DNA of 64,000 bases from Tachypleus tridentatus (lineage: Eukaryota; Arthropoda; Merostomata; Xiphosura; Limulidae): the NCBI RefSeq assembly GCF_004210375.1, contig NC_134837.1, positions 22,577,586 through 22,641,585 of the forward strand, in the 5' to 3' direction. The position numbers were made by a program, and so were the translations under genes. The first letter of the stretch is position 1, and every line of letters begins with the position of its first letter. Shown one piece after another: positions 4,033 through 59,975 of this stretch. Under the pieces are notes generated by a model. That model ran no database searches. It was not told the origin of the DNA and saw only the letters and a program-made list of their open reading frames with translations.

Positions 4033-4950
4033 ACTATACATTCCTTGGGACTCAGCACATGAAACAAAACAAAAACTCAACATACTAAGAAACCAAATAA
4101 ACACAGCCATAAAACTATGCTCACCAGATAAAATTAATGATGAATTAGACAAAATAAAACAATACTTCATCAACATCAATAAGTTTCCTCCACAAACCGT
4201 AGAAAACATTATAAGCACACACATAGACAGAAAGCAAAATCAACCAACAAAAGTAAATATATCTAATGAATAAAAAAAATCACGAAACCATATACTGCTG
4301 CATACCATATATTCCCGACATCAGCAGACAAATAACCAACATTTGGCAAAAAACTAGTAACAAAATATGACATTCCAGTTAATACCAAATTTATTCAAAA
4401 CCCAGGCACAAAACTGAGGTCTATACCATGTAAAACTACACTGACAAACACCACACCAACATTATTTATAAAATACAATGTGATAACTGCCACGACTTCT
4501 ATATTGGAGAAACAAGTAGAAAAATGGAAACCAGATTCAAAGAACATAAAAAGTCACCTGCACATGTTTTCGAACACTGCAAGTCAAATAAACACAACAT
4601 AACCATAAAAAAACATCAAATACTAAATAAACAAACAAACATAAACAAATGCAAAATTAAAGAAGCCTTACTTACACAACAACTTAAATCCAAAATAAAT
4701 CAATATAAAGGGACGCCTTTATACCTATATTAAATATAATAAAATAAAATTATATATTCAAACATCTAACACTGTCCTCTACATTCCGACACTCAGTTAC
4801 ACAACCCCTTCCAAACATGTGGTCAGCTTCTGGTCAGTTACCTCTTTCTTTCTTTGTGAACCTGACGATGACCGAAGAAGGTCGAAACATTGTTCACTCT
4901 TCTACATAAAATATTTTCTCAACCCAAATGAGCCGTTTTTGCATATATAT
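4033..4950 (+). mobile_element. Penelope-like element copy 1, 5'-truncated
   Basis: This copy is nearly identical to the 3' two-thirds of the copy at 30.3-31.9 kb and begins abruptly at the sequence coding IPWDSAHETKQK. It keeps the post-RT linker and the C-terminal GIY-YIG endonuclease (IYKIQCDNC, then FYIGETSRKMETRF near 4450-4560), the domain pairing that defines canonical PLEs. A frame break lies near 4270 in an A-run. The 3' untranslated part carries a hammerhead-like motif (4856-4897) and ends near the GAGCCGTTTTTGCATATAT sequence shared by all three copies. It lies between two Jockey-like fragments of opposite orientation. Confidence 0.85.
4856..4897 (+). ncRNA. Hammerhead-ribozyme-like motif in PLE copy 1
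   Basis: Helix I pairs GTGAAC (4856-4861) with GTTCAC (4892-4897). The CUGANGA core is at 4862-4868 (CTGACGA). Helix II pairs GACC (70-73 of this block, 4870-4873) with GGTC (4880-4883). The second core GAAA is at 4884-4887. Helix III is minimal (ACAT). One extra U (4869) lies between core A9 and helix II, a departure from the textbook core. Hammerhead motifs with very short helix III are known from Penelope-like elements, where they are thought to process element RNA. Activity is inferred. Confidence 0.5.
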
Positions 4951-10950: not shown

Positions 10951-11442
10951 GTGAGGTGGATATGTCCCTTCACTATAACTGTGTTGTGAGGTGGATATGT
11001 TCCTTCACTATAACTGTGTTGTGAGGTGGATATGTCCCTTCACTATAACTGTGTTGTGAGGTGGATATGTTCCTTCACTATAACTGTGTTGTGAGGTGGA
11101 TATGTTCCTTCACTATAACTGTGTTGTGAGGTGGATATGTCCCTTCACTATAACTGTGTTGTGAGGTGGATATGTCCCTTCACTATAACTGTGCTGTGAG
11201 GTGGATATGTCCCTTCACTATAACTGTGTTGTGAGGTGGATATGTCCCTTCACTATAACTGTGTTGTGAGGTGGATATGTCCCTTCACTATAACTGTGTT
11301 GTGAGGTGGATATGTCCCTTTACTATAACTGTGTTGTGAGGTGGATATGTCCCTTCACTATAACTGTGTTGTGAGGTGGATATGTCCCTTCACTATAAGT
11401 GTGTTGTGAGGTGGATATGTCCCTTCACTATAACTGTGTTGT
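10951..11442 (+). repeat. 35-bp minisatellite, about 14 copies
   Basis: The unit begins GTGAGGTGGATATGTCCCTT and continues CACTATAACTGTGTT. Fourteen head-to-tail units show few variants: TGTTCC for TGTCCC in three units, and one change each in three others. Near identity implies recent expansion or homogenisation. Confidence 0.97.
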
Positions 11443-23560: not shown

Positions 23561-23596
23561 AATAATTTTAAGTTAAGAAAACTAAAATATGTCTAC

Positions 23597-23862
23597 CTTT
23601 TGTTGTAATTTGGCACTAGTATAATCAGTGTCATTATTCTCACTGCCTGTAAGCTTTGGTGTTTCAATAACTTGTTCAGCTCCCCTTGAACTTTCCAACT
23701 GTTCTATGTATGAAGATGATGATGGTGATGAAGACAGTACAACAGACAAAGGTTCTTCAAAATATGTTTCCTGTTCTTCATGGTAGGAATTTCCTATTTC
23801 TTCTGTAAACACAGGCCCTAAAGAATTACTTGATGTTCTTCCTGTTGTATCTAATGTATGTT
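23597..23862 (-). CDS. Minus-strand host gene, main visible exon (266 nt)
   Basis: On the minus strand the acceptor TTTATATGTTATAG precedes the exon and the donor AAAAG/GTAGAC follows it. Two nucleotides complete a split codon, then 88 codons are open: the exon starts HTLDTTGRTSSNSLGPVF, includes YHEEQETYFEEPLSVV and a SSSPSSSS run, and ends DYTSAKLQQK. The two leading bases join the G left by the 27940-27961 exon to give Glu. The segment is acidic and Ser-rich, probably disordered, and no domain is recognised. Codon content is unlike the flanking repeats, which supports a real exon. The gene identity is unknown. Confidence 0.7.
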
Positions 23863-27126: not shown

Positions 27127-27939
27127 GTATGTGTTCTCTATGGTCTCTATTATTAAATAAAATCCATCCAGGTAAATTTTCTGACATTGCCTCAGAATGT
27201 GTGCAATATTTGTTTGCTCAGTTTTCTCCCAAAAATTCAGTTCTAGGCTAAATATTACTGTAACTGGTATTAGACGTTTTTTTTTTATCTTTTCACTTTT
27301 ACCAACTTAATATGGAATGTTAAATGATTTGCCAGTTGATACAGTGATAATAACTTTACTCAGTTACTAGTTGTAATAATACTAATATACCTAGTTCGCT
27401 TATTACAGTATAGTGTCACTAGAACTGCTGGCATGTCGCAGGTTGAATGTCCTTAGGTTCTTATTTACATGAATGGTTATAGTTGAGTTATGTAGTCTTT
27501 GTATTTTGATCTGTTATATATATATATTTTTATCTAAATTCTACGTTAACTTATAATCGATGTTGGATCGCTAACAACTTCACGAGCTCGTGCAATAATT
27601 TTGTGGAAGTATAGACCAAATATCGAGCTGGATACTTTCAGTTTTTGTACAATTTTAAATTCACTATCGTACCGCAATGAGAACTGTCATTATATAAACT
27701 CCCACTGTCACTTATTAACAGTAACTAACACTAACAGAGTACGTAACGCGATATTATTATTACTGTTGTGGGGAAATGTTTGATCCTTGGATTACACAGT
27801 GAATTAATACTCATGTCTTAGGTTTTCAACAGATTTGTCGTAATTCTGTGTCTCTTAGCAATATATAAACAAAATAATAATAAATAAATATATAAACACG
27901 TATTTGCCGAAGGCAATCTAACTCACTCATTGAGCCTAC
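27127..27939. other. Promoter-proximal intron, nothing recognised
   Basis: CpG dinucleotides become more frequent toward 27.9 kb than in the flanking AT-rich DNA, consistent with an approaching promoter. No other feature is supported. Confidence 0.4.
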
Positions 27940-27961
27940 CTATCATATTTGAATCCTCCAT
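27940..27961 (-). CDS. Minus-strand host gene, first coding exon
   Basis: ATG at 27961 opens seven codons (MEDSNMI) plus one base, then a donor G/GTAGGC. The leftover G joins the two leading bases of the 23597-23862 exon to make Glu, so the frame is kept. A TATA-like AATATAAAAAG lies just upstream of the ATG. It is too close to position a start site upstream of this ATG, so the true start of transcription is unclear. Confidence 0.55.
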
Positions 27962-27994
27962 AGTCTTTTTATATTCGATACTGAAGATGGCGCG
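27962..27994. promoter_or_regulatory. Bidirectional promoter core with TISU/YY1-like start motif
   Basis: The two candidate start codons (27961 minus, 27987 plus) are separated by 25 bp. The plus start lies in GAAGATGGCGCG (27983-27994), which matches 10 of 12 positions of the TISU element (SAASATGGCGGC). TISU is known from genes with very short 5' leaders and overlaps the YY1 motif. Shared-promoter function is inferred from position. Confidence 0.5.
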
Positions 27995-28030
27995 GCAATC
28001 AAATTTTGGCTTATCCCTGTTGCTATGTGG
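27987..28030 (+). CDS. Plus-strand host gene, first coding exon
   Basis: ATG in the TISU-like motif opens 14 codons plus two bases (MARQSNFGLSLLLC then GG), ending at a strong donor (GG/GTAAGC). The first base of the 36894 exon completes Gly. The hydrophobic LSLLLCG could suggest a signal peptide. The following exon is helical and soluble-looking, however, so I do not claim secretion. Gene identity is unknown. Confidence 0.55.
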
Positions 28031-28540
28031 GTAAGCACAAAACAACGAAATGGGCTATATCTGTTCTACTCACCACGGGTGTCAAAATCTGGTTTCTAAT
28101 GTCGTAAGTTCACAGTCAAACTACTGAGCTACTGGAGCGGAAGCTCATGTCCAAAGTTATTCTGTCGGTTTAATTAAATTGGTGATTATTTGGTTATATA
28201 AGTGCCGGGCTTACTTTTGAATGGTACTGATTGAGAGGATAAATATTGAGGAGCATCTGGGTATGAGAAAAATAAGGAATAAAAATATTTTATAATACAA
28301 ATTTCAAAAAGAAAAAAATTAAGGGATGTTACAGTAACCGACTACTGTGAAATTGCCTACTGATTTAAGTGGAAATACTGAAGAGATGGCTTTTTTCTCT
28401 TTTGTAAATACGCTTTTAGCGATTAAAGATAAACATACTTTTTAAATTTAAAAAAATCAAAAGCCCCCGGTAACCCAATGGTAAATTATAGACAAAATCA
28501 TATTTCGATATCTGTGGTACGCAAAAAAGAAATAGCTCAT
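28031..28540. other. Intron-like sequence, nothing recognised
   Basis: Unique-looking sequence downstream of the plus-strand first exon, without a supported element. Confidence 0.4.
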
Positions 28541-28767
28541 TATTAGTACTAGAAATAAATGACCTTATAGCACCAAAATGTTTTTATTTAATTTGGTAAT
28601 CAACGTTTCACTCTTCAGCAACTTCGTGGGTGTTTGTTAAAGCACAAATCGAAGCTGACAGTACAAAGCTCGTAGGAAAGAATATAGCTGTAAATCGAAA
28701 CATTGAATGTCTAATTAAATAAAAACAACATTTTGGTGTTATAATGTCGTTTATTTCTAGTATTAAT
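28541..28767. mobile_element. MITE-like element with about 50-bp inverted repeats
   Basis: The left end reads TTAGTACTAGAAATAAATGA and continues CCTTATAGCACCAAAATG. The right end is its near-complement, CATTTTGGTGTTATAATG then TCGTTTATTTCTAGTATTAA. The 227-bp unit has no coding content. Superfamily is unassigned. Confidence 0.75.
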
Positions 28768-28824
28768 ATGTACTTTATGCACTAATATACACTATAGAAA
28801 TTAAATAACTCAATATGATTTGGT

Positions 28825-28975
28825 TTGTTTTGAATTTCGCACAAAGCTACACAAGGGGTATCTGCGCTTGCCGTTATTAATTTAGTAGTGATATAGTAGA
28901 GGGAAAGCAATTAATCAACACCACCAACCGCTGTTCTTGGGTTACTATTTTACAGACGTGAGGTAGTCATATTTG
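28825..28975 (-). repeat. Diverged tRNA-derived SINE, type 1 tail part
   Basis: GAATTTCGCACAAAGCTACA, ATCTGCGCTTGCCGT and the following blocks match the family tail with many substitutions. The tRNA-like head is lost. Confidence 0.65.
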
Positions 28976-29699
28976 CGGGTTGATATGGTGACTACTTAAT
29001 ATTGCAAGGATAAATATCAGCTTTTGTATTCATCAAATTTCTAGACTGTCATTATTACTTCGGCAGCATGTTAATTTATTTTAAAGTACAAATTTTATTC
29101 TCGTGAATATTGCACTGAAAGAAAAATTGACAATTCTGACTACAAAAATAACGTAATATGACTGTTATTTGATAAATGAAAACCTTGGCTTTCTATTGGT
29201 TATATAGTATTATAGGTCAGAGAGAACTAATGAGAAATCCTGAAAGATGGAATGGGTCAGGTGGGTATGACAAAAGAGGTCTCTTTTTCTCTCTGAGGGT
29301 TAAGTGATCCAAACAGTTAAAGGCTATAAATATTATGCGTTGCCTGGGCAATGAGAATATTATAATGAGTAACTTCCGTTAAATTTTATATTTCTTGGAG
29401 GGATGACAAATGAATTAGAGAAAAGGCCATACGTAAAGAAAAAAAGTCAAATTTCTTACACTACTGGAAATTCCAGGTTTTAAAAATATTTCTTTATAAA
29501 TTATGAACTTAGAACTTATATACTATTAAAATATTGATTATTAGCTACGATTATACGCTATACTAAATCACTCAACAAGAAACAAAAAGTAGTTTAATTA
29601 AGTTTACCAGAAATATCGTGGAATGCACAATAAAAATGCCTGTGGAAAGAGGGTTACTGGTTCAAATCTCTTGATCAAACATGCTCGATTTTTTAGCAG
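28976..29699. other. Intron-like sequence, nothing recognised
   Basis: Neither coding potential nor repeats could be supported. Confidence 0.4.
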
Positions 29700-29898
29700 T
29701 GATGGTTAAGTCCCGCTAAAATCAGGGGTTCGATTCCCCTCGATGGGCTGAGAATTTGTCCTCCAAGTTGGGGGTTGTGCGGTAGGCTAACAACCTACTC
29801 ACTTAAAAACCAGCGTGTTCATAAAACCGCAGCGTATGCGGCCCTATGTTCCTTACGGAATAGAGTGTTATTTGACTGATTGATTGATGGTTAAGTCC
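29700..29898 (+). mobile_element. 171-bp retroposon with 14-bp target duplication
   Basis: TGATGGTTAAGTCC occurs at 29700-29713 and 29885-29898. The 171 bp between carry a tRNA-like B box (GGGGTTCGATTCCCCT) near the left end and a TGAT-repeat tail at the right end. Its body does not match the other SINEs here. I read it as a separate, 5'-truncated SINE-like retroposon. Confidence 0.75.
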
Positions 29899-29952
29899 AC
29901 TACTGGTAGAGGGATAAATGATTAATTTTACAAACAAGGTTATCACATTAAT

Positions 29953-30036
29953 TTTTTTTTTTGCAATTTCGCGCTAGCCGTCCCTAATTTAGCAGTGTGA
30001 GACTAAAGGGAAGGCAGCTAGTCATCACCACCCATT
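29953..30036 (-). repeat. SINE type 1 fragment cut by PLE copy 2
   Basis: The sequence GCTAGCCGTCCCTAATTTAG through CATCACCACCCA is family tail. It stops exactly where the inverted PLE segment starts. The missing rest of the SINE is not found beyond the PLE, so insertion came with deletion or the SINE was already truncated. Confidence 0.75.
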
Positions 30037-31890
30037 GGTTTATGAGGTTTGGGGATGCCGTATATTTGCGGTGTGCGTGAGTCGGTTTTACGAAGGTAGG
30101 AATAAAGTGTTTGTGAAATTGTGTTGGCTTTTTTCATTTGTAGTAGTAATTTGTTCAGTTGCGTCTCGTGTGTCTTTGTTGGATTTGTGTGTATTGGTTT
30201 AAATTTGTTCGTGTCTGATAGGATGTTATTCATTTTTTGGATGTATTCATTCGTGTTCATTGTGACTATAGCGTTACCTTTACCCCCAAACCTCATAAAC
30301 CAGATTGTCTATTACGACCAATAATGTCCACATATGAATCGTTTAATTGCAATCTTGGTAAATACATAGCATGGGCATTCTCCAAATATGTAACATCAGC
30401 CAGCTCATTCATCAAAGACTCTTTTAATTTCAAGTCTAATCTTAATCAACTTAATCATAAAGCCTTAATGGCCAGTTTCGATGTTATATCCCTCTTTACA
30501 GAAGTTCCAACCACTGAAGCCTGCAAGATAGCCTTAGAACTCTATATCTGAGACCCTAACCCAACCATAGAAATTCCCAGTAACCAGTTAGCAACCCTAA
30601 TAGAATTCACCACGATAAAGACAAACTTCATGTTCAACAACCAAAACTATATACAAACAAATGGCCTAAGCATGGGCAACCCAGTATCACCAGTTCTATC
30701 CAATATTTTTTATGACACAAGTTGAAACACAAGCAATTAAAACAGCATTACATCCACCACTATACTGGTACAGATATGTAGATGACACGGTTGCGGGATT
30801 CAAATCTGCAGAACACATACTTAATTTTTTCAATCACATTAACTCTATACATCCCAACATTAACTTCACATGTGAACAGGAAGAAAGCAATCAAATATCA
30901 TTTCTGAACCTCAAAATTACAAGAACCGACACACAATTTAAAACAGAAATCCACCGAGAAACCATCCATACTGGACTATACATTCCTTGGGACTCAGCAC
31001 ATGAAACAAAACAAAAACTCAACATACTAAGAAACCAAATAAACATAGCCATAAAACTATGCTCACCAGATAAAATTAACGATGAATTAGACAAAATAAA
31101 ACAATACTTCATCAACATCAATAAGTTTCTTTCACAAACCATAGAAAACATTATACGCACACACCTAGACAGAAAGCAAAATCAACCAACTAAAGTAAAT
31201 ATATCTCACGAATCAAAAAATCACGAAACCATATACTGCTGCATACCATATATTCCCGACATCAGCAGAAAAATAATCAGCATTTAACAAAAACTAGTAA
31301 CAAAATATGACATTCCAGTTAATACCAAATTTATTCAAAAACCAGGCACAAAACTGAGGTCTATACTATGTAAAAACTACACTGACAAACATCACACCAA
31401 CATTATTTATAAAATACAATGTGATAACTGCCACGACTTCTATATTGGAGAAACAAGTAGAAAAATGGAAACCAGATTCAATGAACATAAAAAGTCACCT
31501 TCACACGTTTTCGAACACTGCAAGTCAAATAACCATAGAAAACACTCAAATACTAAATAAAGAAACAAACATAATCAAACGCAAAATTAAAGAAGCCTTA
31601 CTTATACAACAACTTAAACCCAAAATAAACCAATATAAAGGAACGCCTTTATACCTATATTAAAATAATAAAATAAATAAAATTATATATTCAAACATCT
31701 AACACTGCCCTCTACATTCCGACACTCAGTTACACAACCCCTTTCAAACATGTGGTCAGCTTCCGGTCAGTTACCTCTTTCTTTGTGAACCTGACGATGA
31801 CCGAAGAAGGTCGAAACGTTGTTCGCTCTTCTATGTAAAATTTTTTCTCAACCCAAACGAGCCGTTTTTGCATATAAATTTCTCAACAAG
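30036..31890 (+). mobile_element. Penelope-like element copy 2 with inverted 5' segment
   Basis: The plus-strand part (30284-31890) encodes the RT and C-terminal GIY-YIG domain. RT motifs include KPDCLLRPIMS, ASFDVISLFTEVP, LSMGNPVSPVLSNIF and RYVDDT, whose YVDD is the catalytic box. The endonuclease has IYKIQCDNC and FYIGETSRKMETRF. Breaks are a stop after LELYI (near 30549), a one-base shift in a T-run near 30707, a stop near 31285 and later stops. The segment 30036-30302 is inverted and encodes, on the minus strand, the N-terminal neighbour (GKGNAIVTMNTNEY to YGIPKPHK). A hammerhead-like motif lies at 31785-31826. Non-autonomous now. Confidence 0.9.
31785..31826 (+). ncRNA. Hammerhead-ribozyme-like motif in PLE copy 2
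   Basis: Helix I pairs GTGAAC (31785-31790) with GTTCGC (31821-31826), with one wobble. CTGACGA is at 31791-31797 and helix II pairs GACC with GGTC. GAAA is followed by CGTT, so helix III is the self-complementary ACGT. Such a tiny palindromic helix III would favour a dimer. As in copy 1, one extra U precedes helix II. Confidence 0.5.
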
Positions 31891-32399
31891 TGGGTTTCTC
31901 GACATCACTGAATAGTCACTTTAGATAAATACAACATTCATTACAAAGTAAGAAATGTTGGATTTAAACAGACTGAAACATGATTTGAAAGAAGAAAAAA
32001 AAACAGATTAAAGTGAAAATCTAGTAAAAGTGACAATTGTAACAGGTTGCTTTATCGTGTAAACAAGAAAGCGTCGTTTAGGGCGACAAGACGCCAATTA
32101 CAATAGATTTATTGAAAAACCCAGGTATGCAGTATCGATTGAGTACATAAGTCAACCAATTCGAGAAAATTTACAAGTAATGCAAGGAATAAATAATACC
32201 AAATCCAATTCTACGTCAAAAGATATACACTTAATTTACACTTATTAACATAAAGATATGAAGACTCATAACGAACGAAAACAATAACATCGATTATATT
32301 AAAGTTTACACTTTTAGTAACTTATATTAGATCTGTAAGGGTTCTAACACTATCAACATTATTTATTTAACTTTGAGACTTTTGCATGATACATTATAT
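31891..32399. other. Intron-like sequence, nothing recognised
   Basis: The first 30 bases (CTCAACAAGTGGGTTTCTCG) might still belong to the PLE 3' end, but no other copy confirms this. The remainder shows nothing. Confidence 0.4.
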
Positions 32400-34240
32400 T
32401 TCCATTTTGAGGTGGACCGACATCCATGCGAGGGAAAGATGAAGATCACACCATCTTTACTTCAAACCCAAGAATTAGGGATTAAAATCCCCACCGATTT
32501 CTGGTGATGGCATGAGAATAATTACTGACCTATTGATTTAGGAATTGACATCCAGTATCGAAAGGAAGCCTATTACATGGAACCAACATACCTAACAGTG
32601 ATACAGGCCAGAACCATCCAACGGCAATAACATCCCCATAGGAAGAAATTGAGGAACAGCTAAAGATAGCACGGGAACAGTTCCATAAACTACCACTATG
32701 ACCAAAGTCACAGCAACTGGGGAGGAAGATAGACAATTCGAATCTGTGTGAGGACTTATGTTAATTGGTTCACTCTAATCCAAAACATCTGCGATAGGAA
32801 CTGACTTCCACATGAAGGTAGGACGAAGTCTCCCAACTGAAGGAGTGAACTGAAACTGTGATGGCTCAGCTCAGTGTTTATGTAAAGCGTATGTCATGTC
32901 AATCATTAAGGTGATGGCTCAAATCCAGTGTTTGTGTAAAAGAAAGCAAGAGATCATGTCATCCCGTAAGGTGACGGCTTAACTCCCAGGATTCTGTAAA
33001 TAGTATTACGACGCCACATCAACTAGTAAGCTGACAGCACAACTCTAGTGAATATGTAATAGGTATTAGTAGACCACATCAATATTCAATTCTTGTTTGT
33101 GATCAGGAGGCTACGTCAACCATCAAAGTGATGGCTCAACACATCTTGAAGCCACATTACATACACATTATCAGAACACAACTGTCCTCTCTCAACTGAA
33201 TGATTCGAACCTTGTCTTTGTGTAAAGCATACAAAAGGGTACTTTTGTGATCAACCATCCCAGCAGTTTAGAATGGGAACTAATAAGGATAACCATATTC
33301 CACTCAAAGAAAGGAGGGTTACAATGTAGTGGAGAGTCCAGAGGAATGTCATCACTGATGATAGTGTGATGGATGACCACAAAACATTATTTTGAAAAGC
33401 AGACTACACCGAGTTATTCATTCAAGGCAAGACAGCAATCCCTTTCTGTTCTACCCATGTAGTCTATGGGTGGTATGATTTAGAATGGGTATGCTTATCA
33501 AGCAAATTATTGCAAGGTATTTAACCATTAAGTGATCTTGTGAAACACACCTTCTCTATGGTGAGTGTGCAAAGCCATGGACGAGAGAGCACAAGCCAAC
33601 ATGGCTGACTACAGATTTAAATTTTAAGAATATTTGGTCAGGCACCACTCATCACAGAGCGGGATTCATGTGATAAAAAGGGAGAGAAGAGCTCCTGAAG
33701 TATGGAGAATAGCTACAAATGGTACACAAAACTCTGACGTAGATGATGCATGATACGATTAAGATATTGGGAGATGAATATATTGGGAGTGGTCCACATG
33801 CAGGATTGTGAAACCTCCTCCACTGGACAATAAAGGAAAGAAGTAATAAAAAAGATGAAATGTCGAATCTGATGAGAGGAAACATGGAACAAGGTATGAT
33901 AGGAAGGAAGGGAAAAGTAGGCCAAATTAACCAAAAATTAGACCTAGTTTGTAAAGGTAGAAGTTGAAAGATCGTAAAGGGAAGAGGATTGTTAAGGAGT
34001 AAAAATTTGATTGCCTGAACAGTTAGAAGCACATGCTATTTAACAACAACAGATGCTGACTGGACATAAGCCTATCTGGATCTGGTGTAGAGTAAAGATG
34101 GGAAGGAAGGGAAATAGGAGAAATATGAAGAAAACTGTCGCTATCTTAAGAAGAAAGAAGCGATTGGGATAAAGGAGAAGATAGGTAGAGTGATAAAGGG
34201 CGTCATATCAGAACATTGACCTCTACAGTCCAAGAGAAGG
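32400..34240 (+). repeat. Family X repeat copy
   Basis: Shared modules in order: GTGTGAGGACTTATGTTAAT at 32742, a degenerate 60-bp array at 32858, TTATTTTGAAAAGCAG at 33386, GTAGTCTATGGGTGG at 33460, a TTGTGAAACACACC module at 33538, then a purine-rich tract to 34.2 kb. The order agrees with the copies at 39 and 55 kb. Confidence 0.6.
32858..33140 (+). repeat. Degenerate 53-60-bp tandem array inside family X
   Basis: Units begin GTGATGGCTC (32858), GTGATGGCTC (32911), GTGACGGCTT (32971), CTGACAGCAC (33031) and GTGATGGCTC (33128). Each includes a TGTAAA-type core and a CATGTCAATC-like end, with ATTAAG or AGTAAG before the next unit. Divergence between units is high. Confidence 0.7.
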
Positions 34241-34245
34241 CTTGT

Positions 34246-34523
34246 TTGTTTGATTTTGAATTTTGCGCAAAGCTACACGAGGGCTATCTGTGCTAGCTGT
34301 CTCTAATTTAGCAGTGCAAGACCAGAAGGAAGGCGGCTAGTTATCACCACTCACTGCCAACTCTTGGGCTACTCTCTTACCAACGACGAGTGTGATTGGG
34401 CTTAACATTATACCACCCCCACAGCCAAAAGGGCGAGTATGATTGTTGTAAAGGGGGATTCGAACCCACGATCCCTAGATTACAAGTCGAGCGCCCTAAC
34501 CACCTGATCATGCTAGGCCATTG
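34246..34523 (-). repeat. tRNA-derived SINE, type 1, near full length
   Basis: The plus strand starts with TTTGTTTG, then AAGCTACACGAGGGCTATCT, and ends with the complement of a tRNA-like head (B box complement GGATTCGAACC). All family blocks are present. Confidence 0.9.
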
Positions 34524-35367
34524 AAGAAGGGAGTATAATTTAAGTGTACTGCTGTAGTATTACAATGTGTTCGGTCGATTGCTGGAAATTTGTAGTGAAT
34601 GCTGGAGGGATTTGCACATTTTATATTTAAAAAATAAACACCCAACAAAACAACTATTTAGATATAAAACAATTGAGAATATTAACCTCGAGGAAGCCTC
34701 AAAGGCGAAATGTTGGCAAAAAAATGTACATATATATACACACACATGCATCTCTGGAGTGCAAAGTCGTTCTCGCAGAAATAGACTTTCGTTAACTCAG
34801 CAAGTTACAAATATCGATACTGTATAATAAAGAGTAAACTTACTGATAGAAAGTAATACAAAGATAGGATAAATTGTTGAAATAAAATACTCGAAAAGCA
34901 CATAAACCTAAACTATCACGAGTACTACTAAACGAGAAGTGATAGTTTAGTAAAATTCAGTAGAGAATCACATATGTCAAGACTATATCGTACTGTTATT
35001 GGTGGAGAATTGTCGCTTGAAAATTTCCCTGTGAGACGCATGACAATCAGTCAATTCCAAATAAGTGGAAGGTTAAAAGCTCATGGCGTGCGCTAAAATT
35101 TTTTTGCATGTAGAAGGAGATAATGAACCGGATTAACTGTTTACGTTAAAGGAGGTTTTGGACCGTATCTGAATCCAAAATTTATGACACACACAGCTGA
35201 AAACAAATTAAGTTAAAACTTAAAATATTTAAGTACTGGCACTAATTACTTTATGTATGTTTGCGTTTTCAACATAATTTACTAATTTAAATATATTTTT
35301 TTTTCTTTTGTATCACATTTCCCATGATGAGATTTATTTTTTAAATTGATCTGCATTACATGGAGGT
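34524..35367. other. Intron-like sequence, nothing recognised
   Basis: Short frames at 34.56-34.83 kb overlap on both strands and have no domain character. Confidence 0.4.
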
Positions 35368-35672
35368 ATATATTAGTGTGGCCTGGCATGGCCGAGCGCG
35401 TAAGGCGTGCGACTCGTAATCTGAGGGTCGCGGGTTCGCGCCCGCGTTGCGCTAAACATGCTCGCCCTCCCAGCCGTGGGGTGTATAATGTGACGGTCAA
35501 TCCCACTATTCGTTGGTAAAAGAGTAGCCCAAGAGTTGGCGGTGGGTGGTGATGACTAGCTGCCTTCCCTCTAGTCTTACACTGCAAAATTAGGGACGGC
35601 TAGCACAGATAGCCCTCGAGTAGCTTTGTGCGAAATTCCAAAACAAACAAACAAAACAAAATATATTAGTGT
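35368..35672 (+). repeat. tRNA-derived SINE, type 1, full length with target duplication
   Basis: ATATATTAGTGT flanks the element at 35368-35379 and 35661-35672. The head GGCCTGGCATGGCCGAGCG is tRNA-like, with anticodon-loop-like CTCGTAA and B box GGTTCGCGCCC. Then come the conserved body and an AAACAAAC tail. The clean 12-bp duplication makes this the best-delimited copy. Frames on either strand here are not genes. Confidence 0.95.
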
Positions 35673-36893
35673 AAATGTAAAACAATGTTGAATAGTCAAA
35701 AAATATTTAACAAAGTGGAATTATTAGTACTAATGAAGTTTTAGTTATAATTGATGAGTAGTGTAATAACACCTCAAATTAACAAAATGAAAGGCTAAGG
35801 TTATTAGATGTAAAAGAAAGCCACTAGATATAGAAGCCATTAAAATTGATTTTTTAATACTTTGAATTAAGTGCACCACAACTTGAAGAAATCTCTAAAA
35901 GAAATAAGAATATGTAGGAAATAATGGAATAAATTAGTCCAACAAATAATATTAGACCTTTAGTTAACTATCGATTATAGTCCTAAACTTACATCCTGAT
36001 ATTAAATTTTATAGCATTACTATATAAAACTTTAATATAAATAGAGCGAGAAATTTTAAGATGATAGGAAGTATTTTTAATGTTTCTCAAAATAGCATCT
36101 CTCAATAAAATTTTTGAAATTTCACGATGTAAAAAAATATAGTAAGAGTAAAATAACTTATAAGATTTTATGAAGCTAAAATTAGATATCAATTACTAAT
36201 TTTTACTATGTCATACACAATTTAAGTTTTTCTGCTGTGAGAGAGAAAAATCAACCTATATCAGTGACATCTACTCTCTCAAGAGGGTTAAAGTAAGGGA
36301 GATTGTGTACAGTTTTACAACTGTATGTTTGTTATCAACATAAAGGAATGTGTACATAACATACATTTTGTAAATTTACTTACATGGACAAATTTATTTG
36401 AATATTCGTCTTTACCATCAAAACCACTACATTGGCATTAACTCCAGATTCCTGACTTTTACATTTCACTTTGAAATAAGATAGAACATATTACTTGTAT
36501 GCAACTTCCCAAAGATGAAATATTTCACATTAAGTAAAATGAACTTTATGTCTAAAATATCTATTATGTAATCAATGCAGACATATTAACCTTAGTAGGA
36601 CAACACAACTTTTTAAATCTTTTTCTGCACCTTACTTTCAAAGTATAATTAAATCACTTTACTCTCAATGTATTTTGATGAAATTATTATTATTAAATGT
36701 GTTATAATTCAAAGTTTTTAATTTATTGAAGTTCATATTCATTTAATTCAAAAAACCCTCTAAAACAAAAAATGCCAGTTTTTGTTGTCATAGATGCCCT
36801 AATTGTTATAAAAATCAAATTTAAAAAAAATCATATGTTATGTAAACATTTACTCTAGATTTTCAAATTACAGTTATTTAGACTGTTTTCCAG
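35673..36893. other. AT-rich intron-like sequence
   Basis: Strongly AT-rich, with no element recognised. Confidence 0.4.
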
Positions 36894-36959
36894 TGATCTG
36901 AGTACTTTCCAAGAATTTGTCCTGTATGAAACTATTGTAAAAGATTCTTCAGTTCCAAG
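36894..36959 (+). CDS. Plus-strand host gene, second visible exon (66 nt)
   Basis: A good acceptor (TTAGACTGTTTTCCAG) and donor (CCAAG/GTAAGC) bound 66 nt. One base completes Gly from the first exon, then 21 codons include LSTFQEFVLYETIVKDSS, and AG is left over. It is open in the required frame. The peptide looks like an amphipathic helix. No family is recognised. Confidence 0.6.
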
Positions 36960-41416: not shown

Positions 41417-41466
41417 GCAACTAGAGGTACTGCTGAACCTGTGTCTTGACATTTGCTGCAAGGCTG
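41417..41466 (+). CDS. Plus-strand host gene, third visible exon (50 nt)
   Basis: A strong acceptor (ATATTTTATTTTTCAG) precedes G, which completes Arg from the previous exon. Sixteen codons QLEVLLNLCLDICCKA and one base follow, ending at G/GTGAAA. The peptide resembles a helix of a TPR- or HEAT-like solenoid. The donor is average, and the frame stays open some 30 codons further, so the 3' border is less sure than the 5' one. Confidence 0.55.
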
Positions 41467-41479
41467 GTGAAATTGGTCC

Positions 41480-42050
41480 CTACCATTTACAGGAAGCTAG
41501 TTTATTTGGAAACAATAAACATTACTTATGGAAGTGGCAAGAACAAGAAATATAGATCATTTCAATCCAGTTGGTACAGGGTTTATCCTTGACTGATCCT
41601 TTGTACTATCCAACCTCAAGGTATTTTGCTTTTATTGTAGTTTTGCTACCAGAAATAATCTTATCACCTCAGTTACAAAGCAGATAATCCATTTACAGTT
41701 GAAGGATTCTCCAGCTGGAAGGAACCTGGAGGAAGATTCAATCATTATGAAAGAATCCATGCTCACAAAGAAGCCTGTTTAAATAAAATACTCTTGGCTG
41801 GCCAGCAGTTAACACGCAACTAAATATTCAAGTAGAGTATGACTGGACTCACAGAAGGAAAATGTCCCTGATTTAAATGCCATCTTTAAGATAGTCATTG
41901 AGACAAGGACTTTAGACTAGGTATTGTGAGGCAATTTGCATCAGCTTCTTAAACTCCAAGTCAAAGATAATAAAGGTTTAGATTCCTTGCTATTAGTAAA
42001 AATTTTTATTGGTCTATTGGCAACTAGTGTAGATTTGAAAATAATTGTAC
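41480..42050 (+). pseudogene. hAT-type transposase fragment (TTF zinc-finger region)
   Basis: Plus-strand frames give RSFQSSWYRVYP (stop) L near 41553, CFYCSFATR near 41630, NPFTVEGFSSWKEPGG and HYERIHAHKEAC near 41690-41780, and GNLHQLLKLQVKDNKGLDS near 41930-41985. These are ordered motifs of the TTF-type zinc finger and following region in hAT/ZMYM-like transposases. Stops and shifts are frequent and the catalytic domain is missing. Confidence 0.65.
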
Positions 42051-42900: not shown

Positions 42901-44188
42901 TTATTGTTGATAAACATCCAAAGAATGCCAAACAGAGTGCATTAATTCTTTTTTAAACATGGGCTAAGTCCCTTGTATTGACCTTGTAACCATTTTGAGC
43001 TTGTTAGAATTTTGTTGCTATAGCTTTTTAAATTAGTGTATGAACAAAATTTTGTAGATTATCAGTAAACATTACAATGCTTTCATATGCAAAATATCAA
43101 CAAATTTTTATTAAGTCTTAAGGTTTGTTAAGCAATGGTTTTTCATGCTTTTTTCTTTTTACGTTGCTTATTCAACATGCAAAGTAATTTTCATTTTAAA
43201 ATTAAAAATATTTTTATGCATCAGCAAAAATTCATATTTCACAAGCATAATCTTTACAATGTTCAGATAGTTGTCAAACATATCTTAAGAAGAAACTTAT
43301 TTTCTATCTGTTATTTTTACTAACATATATCTGTAGTGGTTTGGTAGGTTTGACAGATTTCATAACTACTAGAAAAATTAGGAAATAACAATAAATTATG
43401 CCTTTTTTGTTCTAGAATAGTTACAAATTATAACATGAAAACAAAAGTGTTTAGACTAAATAGCTTAAATAGCATAACATTATACATTTATATAGAGTTA
43501 TTATTTTTATTATATTGACTTCTCAACCTGTGCTTGGTTAACAGTACAGAAGTTACAATGACTTTGCACATGTGCACACATGTAACAATATCCAATAGAA
43601 TAAAACTGACCTTTATTCTTTACAAAGTAACATGTCTTGGCTGTGTTTTAGTAGAGAGACTAGTATTTTGTAAAATACACTGCAATCACATTTCAGCTAT
43701 CACACATTATATAAATTTAGAAATAAGTTATTAAACATATTATTTTTAAAACATAGAACAGTTAAGAAAAAAAGAGATAAAGGAAAAATTATCTCTTCTA
43801 GTTATGACCTACACATTCAGTTACTGCCTGATTTTGCTAAGCCTTTTAAAATTTTGCACATGGAGGATGTGATACAAAATTTTTTCTTGGTTTTTTTATG
43901 CATGCAGCTGAATAACGAAAAGCCATAAATTACAATGTTGAGACTATAAAATTCCACTATAATTTATCAAGCTTAGTATCTAAGCTGTATTTCAGCTTAA
44001 AAATAATGAAAATTTGAGCAGACTAATGACACAACCTACCTCTTTGAAATCTTGGTTTGAAAGAACAAAATGGTATCTAACATTTTATAATGGCTGAGAA
44101 ATCTACTAGGAGGTGATTCTGAGTTTTCAGTTACTTATTCACATGACATATATTGAAGTAAGTGTATATAAGGTGCCATTTTCAAAAA
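42901..44188. other. AT-rich, nothing recognised
   Basis: No repeat unit, domain or good splice pair recognised. Confidence 0.4.
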
Positions 44189-44422
44189 ATAGAAAGAGGT
44201 ATGTGGACCACTGTGTTTGATTGAATAATAGAAAGAGGTATGTGGGCCACTGTGTTTGATTGAATAATAGAAAGAGGTGTGTGGGCCACTGTGTTTGATT
44301 GAATAATAGAAAGAGGTGTGTGGGCCACTGTGTTTGATTGAATAATAGAAAGAGGTGTGTGGGCCACTGTGTTTGATTGAATAATAGAAAGAGGTGTGTG
44401 GGCCACTGTGTTTGATTGAATA
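44189..44422 (+). repeat. 39-bp minisatellite, 6 copies
   Basis: The unit starts ATAGAAAGAGGTGTGTGGGC and continues CACTGTGTTTGATTGAATA. Six copies differ at few positions. Because 39 is a multiple of three the minus strand stays open through 13-residue repeats (YSIKHSGPHTSFY), which I do not treat as a gene. Confidence 0.95.
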
Positions 44423-47239: not shown

Positions 47240-48467
47240 CACATTACATGGCTAAAAGTATGTGGACATCCAACAATCACATCCGTATATGCTTGTTGAA
47301 CATCTCATTCCAAAACCATGGGCATTAATGTGGAGTTGGTTTCTCCTTTGCTGCTCTAACAGCCTCCACTCTTCTGGCAAGGCTATTTACTAGATTTTGG
47401 AACATGGCTTGGGGATTTGTTCCTATTCAGCCATGAGCATTAGTGAGGTCAGGCACTGATGTCAGATGAGAAGGCCTGGCTTGCACTCGTTGTTCCAATT
47501 TTTCCAAAGGTGTTTGATGGGGTTGAGGTCAGGGATCTGTGCAGGCCATTCAAGTTCTTCCACACCAACAACAGCAAACCATGTCTTTATGGACCTCGCT
47601 TTGTGCATGGGGGCATTATCATGCTGAAACAAAAAAGGGCCTTCCCAAAACTGTTGCCATAAAGTTGGAAGCACACAATTCTGTAGAATGTCATTGTATG
47701 TTGTAGTATTAAGATTTCCCCTCACTGGAACTAAAGAGCCTAGCTCAAACCATGAAAAAAAGCCCCAGACTATTATTTCTCCTCCACAAAACTTTACAGT
47801 TGGCACTGTGCATTCAGGTAGGTAGAGTTCTCCTGGCATCCACCAAACCCAGGTTTGTCCATCAGACTGCCAGATAGTGAAGTGTGATTCACACTTCAGA
47901 GAATGCATTTTCATTGCTCTAGAATCAAAGGGCAGTGTGCTTTACACCACTCCAGCTGACATTTGGCATTGTACATCATGATCTTAGGCTTGTGTGTGGC
48001 TACTCAGCCATGGAAACCCATTTCATGAAGCTTCTGACATTGCTTCCAGAGGCAGTTTGGAAATCTATAGTAAATGTTGCAATTGTGGGCAGATTATTTT
48101 TACGTGCTATGTGCCTCGGCACTCAGCGGTCCTGTTCTGTGAGCTTCTGTGGCCTACCACTTCGTGGCTGAGCTGTTGTTGCTCCTAAACATTTCCACTT
48201 CACAAAAACAGCACTTACAGTTGACCAGGGCAGCTCTAGCAGGGCAGAAATTTGATGAACTGGCTTGTTGGAATGGTGGCATCCTATGAGAGTGCCACAT
48301 TGAAAGTCACTGAGCTCTTCAGTATGACCAATTCTACTGCCAATGTTTGTCTATGGAGATTGCATGGTTGTATACTCGATTTTATGCACCTGTTTCCAAT
48401 GGGTGTGGCTGAAATAGCCAAATCTACTAATAAGAAGGGCTGTCCATGTACCTTTGGCCATGTAGTG
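47240..48467 (-). mobile_element. Tc1-like DNA transposon nested in family X
   Basis: Inverted ends (CATTACATGGCTAAAAGTAT on the left; TTTGGCCATGTAGTG on the right) and TA flanks delimit 1.23 kb. The minus strand has a 150-codon frame (47462-47914) with the transposase core: [44 protein letters not shown] and [15 protein letters not shown]. The DNAP motif carries the second catalytic Asp. The third catalytic residue, normally Glu in NPIEHLW, is Lys here. Stops precede the N-terminal half. It is a sister of the 7.0 kb element. Confidence 0.92.
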
Positions 48468-58060: not shown

Positions 58061-59975
58061 CCTAGTTCTTAACTAATGGTTTATAACACTCTCAGTTTGA
58101 ATAAATTGCTTCGCGAAGCTGATATATCAATAATTATTTTTCTTCTGTTACCTTTAGAGTAAGATTGGAAGGAATTTAGGACAAATTACTTGTTTTAATG
58201 TTATTATTAGCAAAGCCGAATTTGAGACTATGACAGGATTTGAAAGCATTGATTTAAAAATGTAACGATTTATTAGATCATTTACAGTAAAAGCAACAGC
58301 ATCTTATTAAACAAACTTTTAAGTAAAAGTGAAATACATTCAAGACCTGATTACTTTTTCAGATGAATTGATGCCATACTGGTAATATTTAGAAGATCGG
58401 CAATGTTCAGTCTGTCCAGTTTATTCAATCAAATTTACACCAACATCTTCTTGGTTATAGATTAAACGAAAGTAGCAAAAATATCTGCTACTTTTCAATA
58501 CTAAAACTATAAGTTAAAGTAAAGAACAATATGTAACATGTCAGCTCCGTTACATCTGCCATATCCTGTGCCGATGAGAACTTTTATTCAATACCAGAAT
58601 TTATCAACCCGGCTGGGATACAAGTCATGGTAGTGGTCAAGGAGATAAATTTATGACCAGTTTCACTAACTGTCGGTATACACAGTATAATTAAAATATA
58701 TTCAGATTACATTGTTATTGTATGAAATTATAGATATTATTTAGCATTATTTCAGAATTCTGTTCCATAAACTGAATATAACGTAATTAACCTAAATTTA
58801 TGTCATGTTTAATTTTATAACACAGGCACGTAAAAGGGTTCATTGTGGTGATTGCATCCTTAGCAAAACTGGACACGGTTTTAATTTTTTTTCTTCTGTT
58901 ATATTTTCTTTTGGACTCTAATATCTCAGAAGTATTATACGTTTATAAAACAATTCTGCCGCTTCATTAACATTATTTGAAGAGGTAAACTACTGCCAAT
59001 CAATTTCTCCCATCAGGTGATACTTAAAGTCAAAATTAACTTTTTTTTTCAAATCATAAGTATACTCTAAACAATTAGCTGGACTTAATCTGGTAAACAA
59101 AGTTAAAATACGTAACGTTTAATGCAGTTTATTTCGCAACTTCGCATTTCAATCACATGCAGGAGCAAATTTTGTTTAGTTTTTGTTACGATCGTGAAAT
59201 GTTGCAAGTTCAACTGTAAAAAGCTTCCAATTTTTAAAATTAATTTCAAAGCTAAACATCGTCAGCTGTTATTATTACGAAATAACAGAGACTCTAAAGT
59301 TCTTTGAAGACAAAAGTATCACAAAAATTTGTTGGCAAAGAAGTTTATTTTAGGTTAACCAACAAGCAGAAGTCGTCTTCAAAGAAAGCAGTAGAACTTA
59401 AGTTATTTATAGCAGCGTGTAGGTCGGTCCTTGTAGTTCGACTAAGCTTCAAGAACGAATTAAGAGCATGTTCACATCTACGGGATATTCAGAGGTCTCA
59501 GTTAATTAGGTTTGAGTGATTTAAAAGTTCTATTTTATTTATTTAAAGAGCATATTTAACTCTAAGCTCATCAACTTTGTAATTCGGTAACATAACGATT
59601 TCTAGACGTCAAGTATAGCTTCGATAATTTCTCAATGTGTAAGATGTGGATATACGGCACACTTCTACTTTGGGTTTCACAATGTAGGTATCCCTATTTT
59701 AGCAGTAAGCAGTTTTTATACTTTTGTTTTCAGTATCTAACTTGGATGTTTTAAACCCTTGAATTATTTGATAACGAAGCCGATCAATTTGAAACGAAAT
59801 ATCTTATTTAAGCTATTTTTAGAAATTAAGCAAAACACTAATAGTTCTCGTGGTTATGTAGTAAACGATACTTAAATATATCTGAATTATGCAGTGAAAC
59901 AATTCATTATTTAGAGCATAAAGCAAATAAGTAATGTAATCGTCATATTTCTAATTTGGCTAAAGAAGTTAAACT
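58061..59975. other. AT-rich, nothing recognised
   Basis: More CpG than the flanks around 59.1-59.6 kb, but no exon or element can be defended. Confidence 0.4.

Follow-up and report, generated by a model that had tools for sequence, protein, structure and literature searches.

Two ATG codons that face away from each other at about 28.0 kb of a 64-kb stretch of contig C13 (hereafter the window, within a genome of 2.17 Gb; negative coordinates and those beyond 64 kb lie in its flanks) raise the question whether one gene or two start at this site. The minus-strand ATG (27961) opens the predicted first coding exon 27940-27961 (22 nt, ATG...ATAG, MEDSNMI) with the donor TAG/GTAGGC (score 3.9), and the plus-strand ATG (27987) opens a putative, doubtful first exon at 27987-28030 (44 nt, MARQSNFGLSLLLC plus 2 nt) with the donor TGG/GTAAGC (score 4.1). 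Donor scores of this height are reached by 1.5-1.6 % of all GTs (plus strand, 264 kb), and acceptors are present before 23862 on the minus strand and before 36894 on the plus strand. An earlier note on this DNA had described a head-to-head gene pair with start codons 25 bp apart and first exons of 22 and 44 nt; spacing (27962-27986 between the ATGs), exon sizes and the presence of ATG, short open exon and donor on both strands were all confirmed, the 22-nt exon being invisible to ORF callers.

The geometry as such is rare. If an ATG is counted only when a purine stands at -3 and a G at +4, when its exon remains open for 15-150 nt and when the donor scores 3.8 or more (a definition chosen post hoc, once the pair was known), the opposed strong-Kozak pair at ≤25 bp is the single instance in the 64 kb and also in 264 kb. 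Order-1 Markov simulations of the window yielded such pairs in 0 of 400 runs at ≤25 bp, in 1 at ≤60 bp and in 13 at ≤200 bp, in agreement with a smaller set of 40 simulations. This speaks for a real pair, formed by an HMG20-like gene on the minus strand and a plus-strand gene without named family, with leaders that are very short or overlap and with a plus donor recruited from a SINE. Taken together with the evidence below, such a pair is unlikely, though to be taken seriously. The reading preferred here, to which moderate confidence is attached, regards the site as the place where a single HMG20-like HMG-box gene begins, together with its core promoter, the plus ATG not being a gene start; it has to call the opposed ATG pair, which no simulation reached at ≤25 bp, a coincidence.

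The minus-strand gene is best traced from its second coding exon (23597-23862), which encodes an acidic, Ser-rich segment without Met, and whose frame, should the weak donor at 23597 be skipped, continues to a stop at 23582. A genome search with this exon retrieved one match, the exon itself; scanned as 23644-23862, it outscores all other minus-strand exon candidates of the window that are not repeats (scans left of 27.9 kb and at 28-62 kb). Two further minus-strand exons beyond the window (about -1480 to -1390 and -13390 to -13267) can be joined without a break in phase, giving KRKGGWPKGKKRKK...APSTGYVIFLSERRQQ...SSKEKQ, and match Pfam HMG_box (E 3e-11) and, as best PDB entry, 2crj_A (SMARCE1-family name, E 1e-12), which we take to be HMG20B. 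The HMG box is preceded by a basic stretch (GGWPKGKKRKK, left of the window), a type of N-terminal extension which we regard as a trait of the HMG20 family. HMG box, PDB match and family traits of this kind make an HMG20-like gene most likely, an assignment that uses the general HMG_box model and PDB rather than a family-specific model. For the C-terminal coiled coil that HMG20 proteins presumably carry, one candidate exon (REKEIVVLSQHLENVKHTNLEFQQKLEELK) without database match was found; the C-terminal exons are not firmly identified, which counts against the single-gene reading, and a Pfam scan of the minus strand at 14-24 kb gave no match.

Exon 23597-23862 and the two exons following it are free of Met as far as halfway through the HMG box, and the start codon must therefore come from an upstream exon that ends in phase 1. 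Among minus-strand first-exon candidates with a donor score of at least 2.5 between 23.89 and 29.5 kb (n=4), only the ATGs 27961 and 27946 provide the right phase. Both reside in exon 27940-27961, the sole in-phase first exon of this donor strength over 5.6 kb. Splicing of the minus ATG to 23862, as earlier proposed, fits an HMG20-like gene in view of this in-phase start, the CpG boundary (see below) and the HMG-box exons; the exons would be joined in one mRNA. The join further downstream does not close: the donor at 23597 scores 0.9 and is in phase 0, while the following HMG-side exon needs phase 1 or 2. This gap, predicted to be a missing small exon or an alternative donor, is a further point against the single-gene reading. 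It could also mean that both ATGs are unused, the exon at 23.6 kb being a separate short gene (it may reach its own stop at 23582) or the HMG20-like start being non-canonical and farther off. Considering that the in-phase start is unique and that CpG content changes sharply at 27.25 kb, such a case appears quite improbable.

A second HMG20-like locus, on contig C4 (G000:C4:101761295-101761501), is 46 % identical over the whole query and retains the EKQ exon end. Its HMG-box exon is unsplit and lacks the intron at TG/YV that the gene of the window has in addition; conversely, the C4 copy has a stretch (RDANAPR) that is missing from the gene of the window. A weaker HMG20-related locus (38 % identity) is found on C7. 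The C4 locus has a CpG boundary at about 101734 kb, and the idea of a shared promoter there was discarded, as the 14 kb upstream contain no neighbouring domain of CpG depletion and no matching start exon was recognised.

The observed-to-expected CpG ratio (o/e; 2-kb bins, those with fewer than 500 unmasked bases excluded) divides the region into a CpG-rich zone at 27250-36000 (0.47-0.73), presumably unmethylated, and CpG-depleted domains to its left (-54k to 26k, 0.00-0.25) and right (36k to 58k, 0.00-0.20). The ratio climbs at 27.25-27.5 kb and again at about 58 kb. The zone is uneven, with ratios down to 0.10-0.45 at 33.0-34.2 kb (250-bp bins) and a peak at 34.75-35.25 kb. The minus exons downstream of 27940-27961 lie within one depleted domain (about -54k to 27.25 kb), and the gene would extend from about 28.0 kb leftwards beyond the window; judged from CpG content only, its end may be near -54 kb. 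The distance to the nearest depletion is about 0.7 kb for the minus ATG and about 8 kb for the plus ATG, an asymmetry that argues against the pair and that repeat insertions at 28.5-35.7 kb may explain in part. As a separate observation, the sharpness of these domains (-54000 to 27000, 27250-36000 and 36000-57500; about 0.1 vs 0.5-0.9) makes them resemble a map from which methylated gene bodies can be read; for Limulus, exon methylation deduced from CpG o/e is reported (PMC6409797).

T-A skew follows the direction of the two HMG20-like loci, being negative along the minus-strand gene in 23 of 28 and 52 of 75 blocks (75/103) and positive along the plus-strand C4 copy in 36 of 54. To the left of the start, the flank fits a minus-strand gene. 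To the right, the CpG-depleted domain from 36 to 57.5 kb has minus-like skew as well (negative in 18 of 25 blocks after 7 of 32 strongly purine-biased blocks had been dropped), which hints weakly at minus-strand transcription and disfavours a plus-strand gene. One may therefore consider that this domain is another minus-strand unit, either a tandem gene or upstream HMG20-like exons starting near 58 kb, with no plus-strand start at 28 kb. Negative skew in 27 of 38 blocks across 27-57.5 kb and the renewed rise of CpG at 58 kb agree with such a unit; the skew is weak (11 of 18 blocks with a stricter purine filter) and confounded by purine-rich repeats, and no convincing minus exons emerged. This possibility, which overlaps with the preferred reading, is rather unlikely.

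The same domain was searched for exons of either strand. Exon scans on the plus strand, together with one chain model, and an exon scan on the minus strand (36-57.5 kb each) returned only purine-rich, transposon-like or short candidates. Pfam had no match in the three plus frames of 36.8-64 kb (two frames at 55.8-56.8 kb), and on the minus strand of 36-56 kb it matched only transposase, of Tc/mariner type (47462-47941, DDE_3, E 6.9e-7). The recovery of this transposase near 47.5 kb indicates that the masked-frame search was able to detect something. Rfam and tRNA scans revealed no family at gathering score and no tRNA; one viral UTR match (E 0.35) was at chance level and below cut-off.

In case of the plus strand, the proposed start was to be spliced to 36894. 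A putative exon DLSTFQEFVLYETIVKDSSVP(R) is indeed present at 36894-36959 (acceptor 0.8, donor 7.0), and a possible continuation in phase with it, QLEVLLNLCLDICCKAG... to a stop, at 41417-41555 (acceptor 6.6), with an AATAAA about 230 bp further. The phases of the chain 27987-28030/36894-36959/41417 are compatible throughout, the donor of 7.0 and the acceptor of 6.6 are very strong, and exon 36894 resides in the CpG-depleted domain of 36-57.5 kb and is hence probably transcribed; these points favour the pair and weigh against a single gene. Against the pair stands that none of the three plus exons has a Pfam or PDB match, and that no convincing paralogue was found. Candidate paralogues from genome duplication were rejected: the five weak matches beyond the window have E values of 0.8-10 and internal stops in four cases, and the two candidates examined more closely (L031, L032) have a repeat-like stretch in common. 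In L038 (MARQS... common with the plus exon), the similarity of flanking DNA ends at 18 bases, as expected by chance. ATG, donor and acceptor of the proposed plus splice thus exist as described, while family and paralogue searches, the TISU match and the origin of the donor give it little backing.

A plus-strand gene could also start elsewhere, with the HMG20-like start remaining at this site, e.g., at ATG 29247 or near the CpG peak of 34.75-35.25 kb. The alternative start exon ATGGAATGGGTCAG/GTGGGT has good Kozak bases, is in phase with 36894 and carries a donor of 7.7, compared to 4.1 at 28030. It is one of five phase-2 starts with a donor score of at least 3 between 27.9 and 36.9 kb, and it comprises only four codons and has no family support. 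Such a displaced start, which again overlaps with the preferred reading, is very improbable.

The plus ATG had been assigned to a TISU/YY1 element. The 12-mer GAAGATGGCGCG (27983-27994, plus; minus reading CGCGCCATCTTC followed by AGT) agrees at 10 of 12 positions with SAASATGGCGGC, which we take as the TISU consensus. The match itself holds, but it does not exceed chance: the window contains 3 sites with at most two mismatches on both strands versus 3.2 expected, which argues against the pair, and no site with at most one mismatch occurs in 264 kb. It had also been argued that the tight spacing requires the extremely short leaders of TISU genes. This requirement would fall away, as the 5' ends of divergent transcripts may overlap each other.

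Genome-wide, SAASATGGCGGC occurs 402 times compared to 36 for the reversed-pattern control (about 11 times), the GCG-ending variant SAASATGGCGCG 111 times (17 for the reversed controls) and GAAGATGGCGSS 217 times (53 for the controls). Repeats seem to add to the count of SAASATGGCGGC, as some of its copies are clustered on C1 (near 156 and 168 Mb). Of other genomic copies of GAAGATGGCGCG, 20 of 32 listed were sampled, near-duplicates included (at least three groups among the listed sites), and 1 of the 20 begins a frame that leads to a donor or a long ORF, the base rate being 93/1082; judged by eye, and in another frame, this copy presumably represents a Dscam-like Ig exon. The 12-mer is thus over-represented without marking start exons, as far as this small sample goes, a behaviour that might suit a promoter site of YY1 type. 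That the full TISU/YY1 motif is in excess across the horseshoe-crab genome constitutes a separate, testable lead.

The plus donor coincides with a repeat. An old SINE copy occupies 28028-28134 (plus; profile match, E 2.2e-19), its 5' head maybe reaching back to about 28018; a search of about 0.33 Mb with this profile gave 94 matches (E≤0.01), with related subfamilies counted. Most of the donor lies inside the SINE head: TAAGCACAAA, starting at the donor's T, matches the head (TAAGC of GTAAGC), a further argument against the pair. Among 80 readable heads compared, a donor of at least 3.8 is present at that place in a single copy, the one at 28028-28134, which is compatible with a chance mutation as well as with recruitment; the latter would count against a single gene.

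From these findings, the following picture is preferred. The HMG20-like gene would start transcription at this site, with 27940-27961 as its first coding exon. Plus-strand GAAGATGGCGCG would most likely represent no start codon context; on the minus strand, CGCGCCATCTTCAGT, located 22-33 bp upstream of the HMG20-like ATG, may act as a YY1-type promoter or initiator element. The plus ATG with its open run to the donor would be an unused side product: an old SINE would have inserted next to the promoter, and mutation of its 5' head would have created the donor. The claimed head-to-head pair hence retains its sequence elements and geometry as well as its minus-strand half, which fits an HMG20-like gene, and loses most of the case for a plus-strand gene, in view of the TISU match at chance level, the donor within a SINE and exons without matches. 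A second gene in opposite direction 25 bases away is possible and weakly backed, in part because its splice site sits in an old repeat. The boldest version, a true coding pair in which both genes share a YY1-type element, one using it as initiator and the other as start-codon context, and in which the plus exon became spliceable only after the SINE head had mutated into a 5' splice site, i.e., a new bidirectional start from a transposon, is improbable. If the pair were true, its start codons would be spaced very tightly, and a SINE would have supplied the splice site of a first exon. As it stands, the site illustrates how a reading without tools finds what appears to be a real gene start, yet sees a second gene on thin evidence.

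Plus-strand Ig exons extend from 64144-64422 to about 128 kb, probably as one gene that ends in a basigin/neuroplastin-like transmembrane exon (KLAALWPFLGICLEVSILCGIIFFYEKKR) and has a start candidate of its own, the signal exon MCKMWIYGTLLLWVSQ (59635-59683, plus), some 30 kb from the HMG20-like start. Use of the plus start at 27987 as signal-peptide exon joined directly to Ig exon 64144-64422 was rejected due to a phase clash (exon 1 ends with 2 surplus bases and the Ig exon requires 1), which an intervening exon could resolve; the CpG state moreover changes at 58 kb, and the exon at 59635-59683 is the better signal exon. In human, HMG20A and NPTN are both located at 15q24, and HMG20B and BSG both at 19p13.3, and given this co-location the linkage of HMG20 and basigin/neuroplastin-like genes may be ancient. 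In the open-licence PMC literature, no paper was found to bring together three among HMG20A, HMG20B, PEAK1, basigin, neuroplastin and synteny.

Other features of the region include (i) HSP70-family exons, presumably of the mitochondrial type, on the minus strand of the left flank (-90321 to -90052, PF00012, E 9.5e-36; -92979 to -92873, by eye), (ii) plus-strand retroelement-like ORFs with the motif CDNCHDFYIGETSRKMETRF (30222-31663 and 4434-4733, from ORF reading), which we take to be Penelope-like, with no Pfam match above cut-off for 30670-31287, and (iii) two clean minisatellites at 10951-11442 (35-bp unit, 14 copies) and 44188-44422 (39-bp unit, 6 copies). In the genome as a whole, the coagulin family, to our knowledge confined to horseshoe crabs, was found at 19 places, all 19 above cut-off, compared to none of 14 control genomes, which marks the animal as a horseshoe crab.

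Known systems resemble the site in part. Bidirectional promoters are defined by transcription start sites within 1 kb (PMC7817982). The site is similar in that opposed, start-codon-like ATGs lie in a CpG-rich, presumably unmethylated zone, and differs in that the second (plus) transcript is putative, predicted from sequence alone; among the matches listed from the open-licence PMC literature, nothing pairs HMG20A with bidirectional promoters. According to PMC2518114, TISU genes have a median 5' leader of 12 nt, TISU fits the YY1 consensus and mutations of its flanks lower fidelity. The plus 12-mer shares with TISU the AAGATGGCG core with the ATG inside, but it ends in CG instead of GC and its match is at chance level. 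With respect to the SINE, the candidate donor of the plus exon within the SINE head recalls exonization, i.e., the known derivation of splice sites from SINEs, with the difference that the donor is a putative one. Finally, the minus-strand gene differs from HMG20A and HMG20B (BRAF35/iBRAF, SMARCE1-related) in a coiled-coil C-terminus that is not firmly found, and resembles them in the basic stretch, the GYV motif and the HMG box, in both horseshoe-crab loci with an intron right after ...EKQ, and also in its acidic, Ser-rich N-terminus, as in the human proteins.
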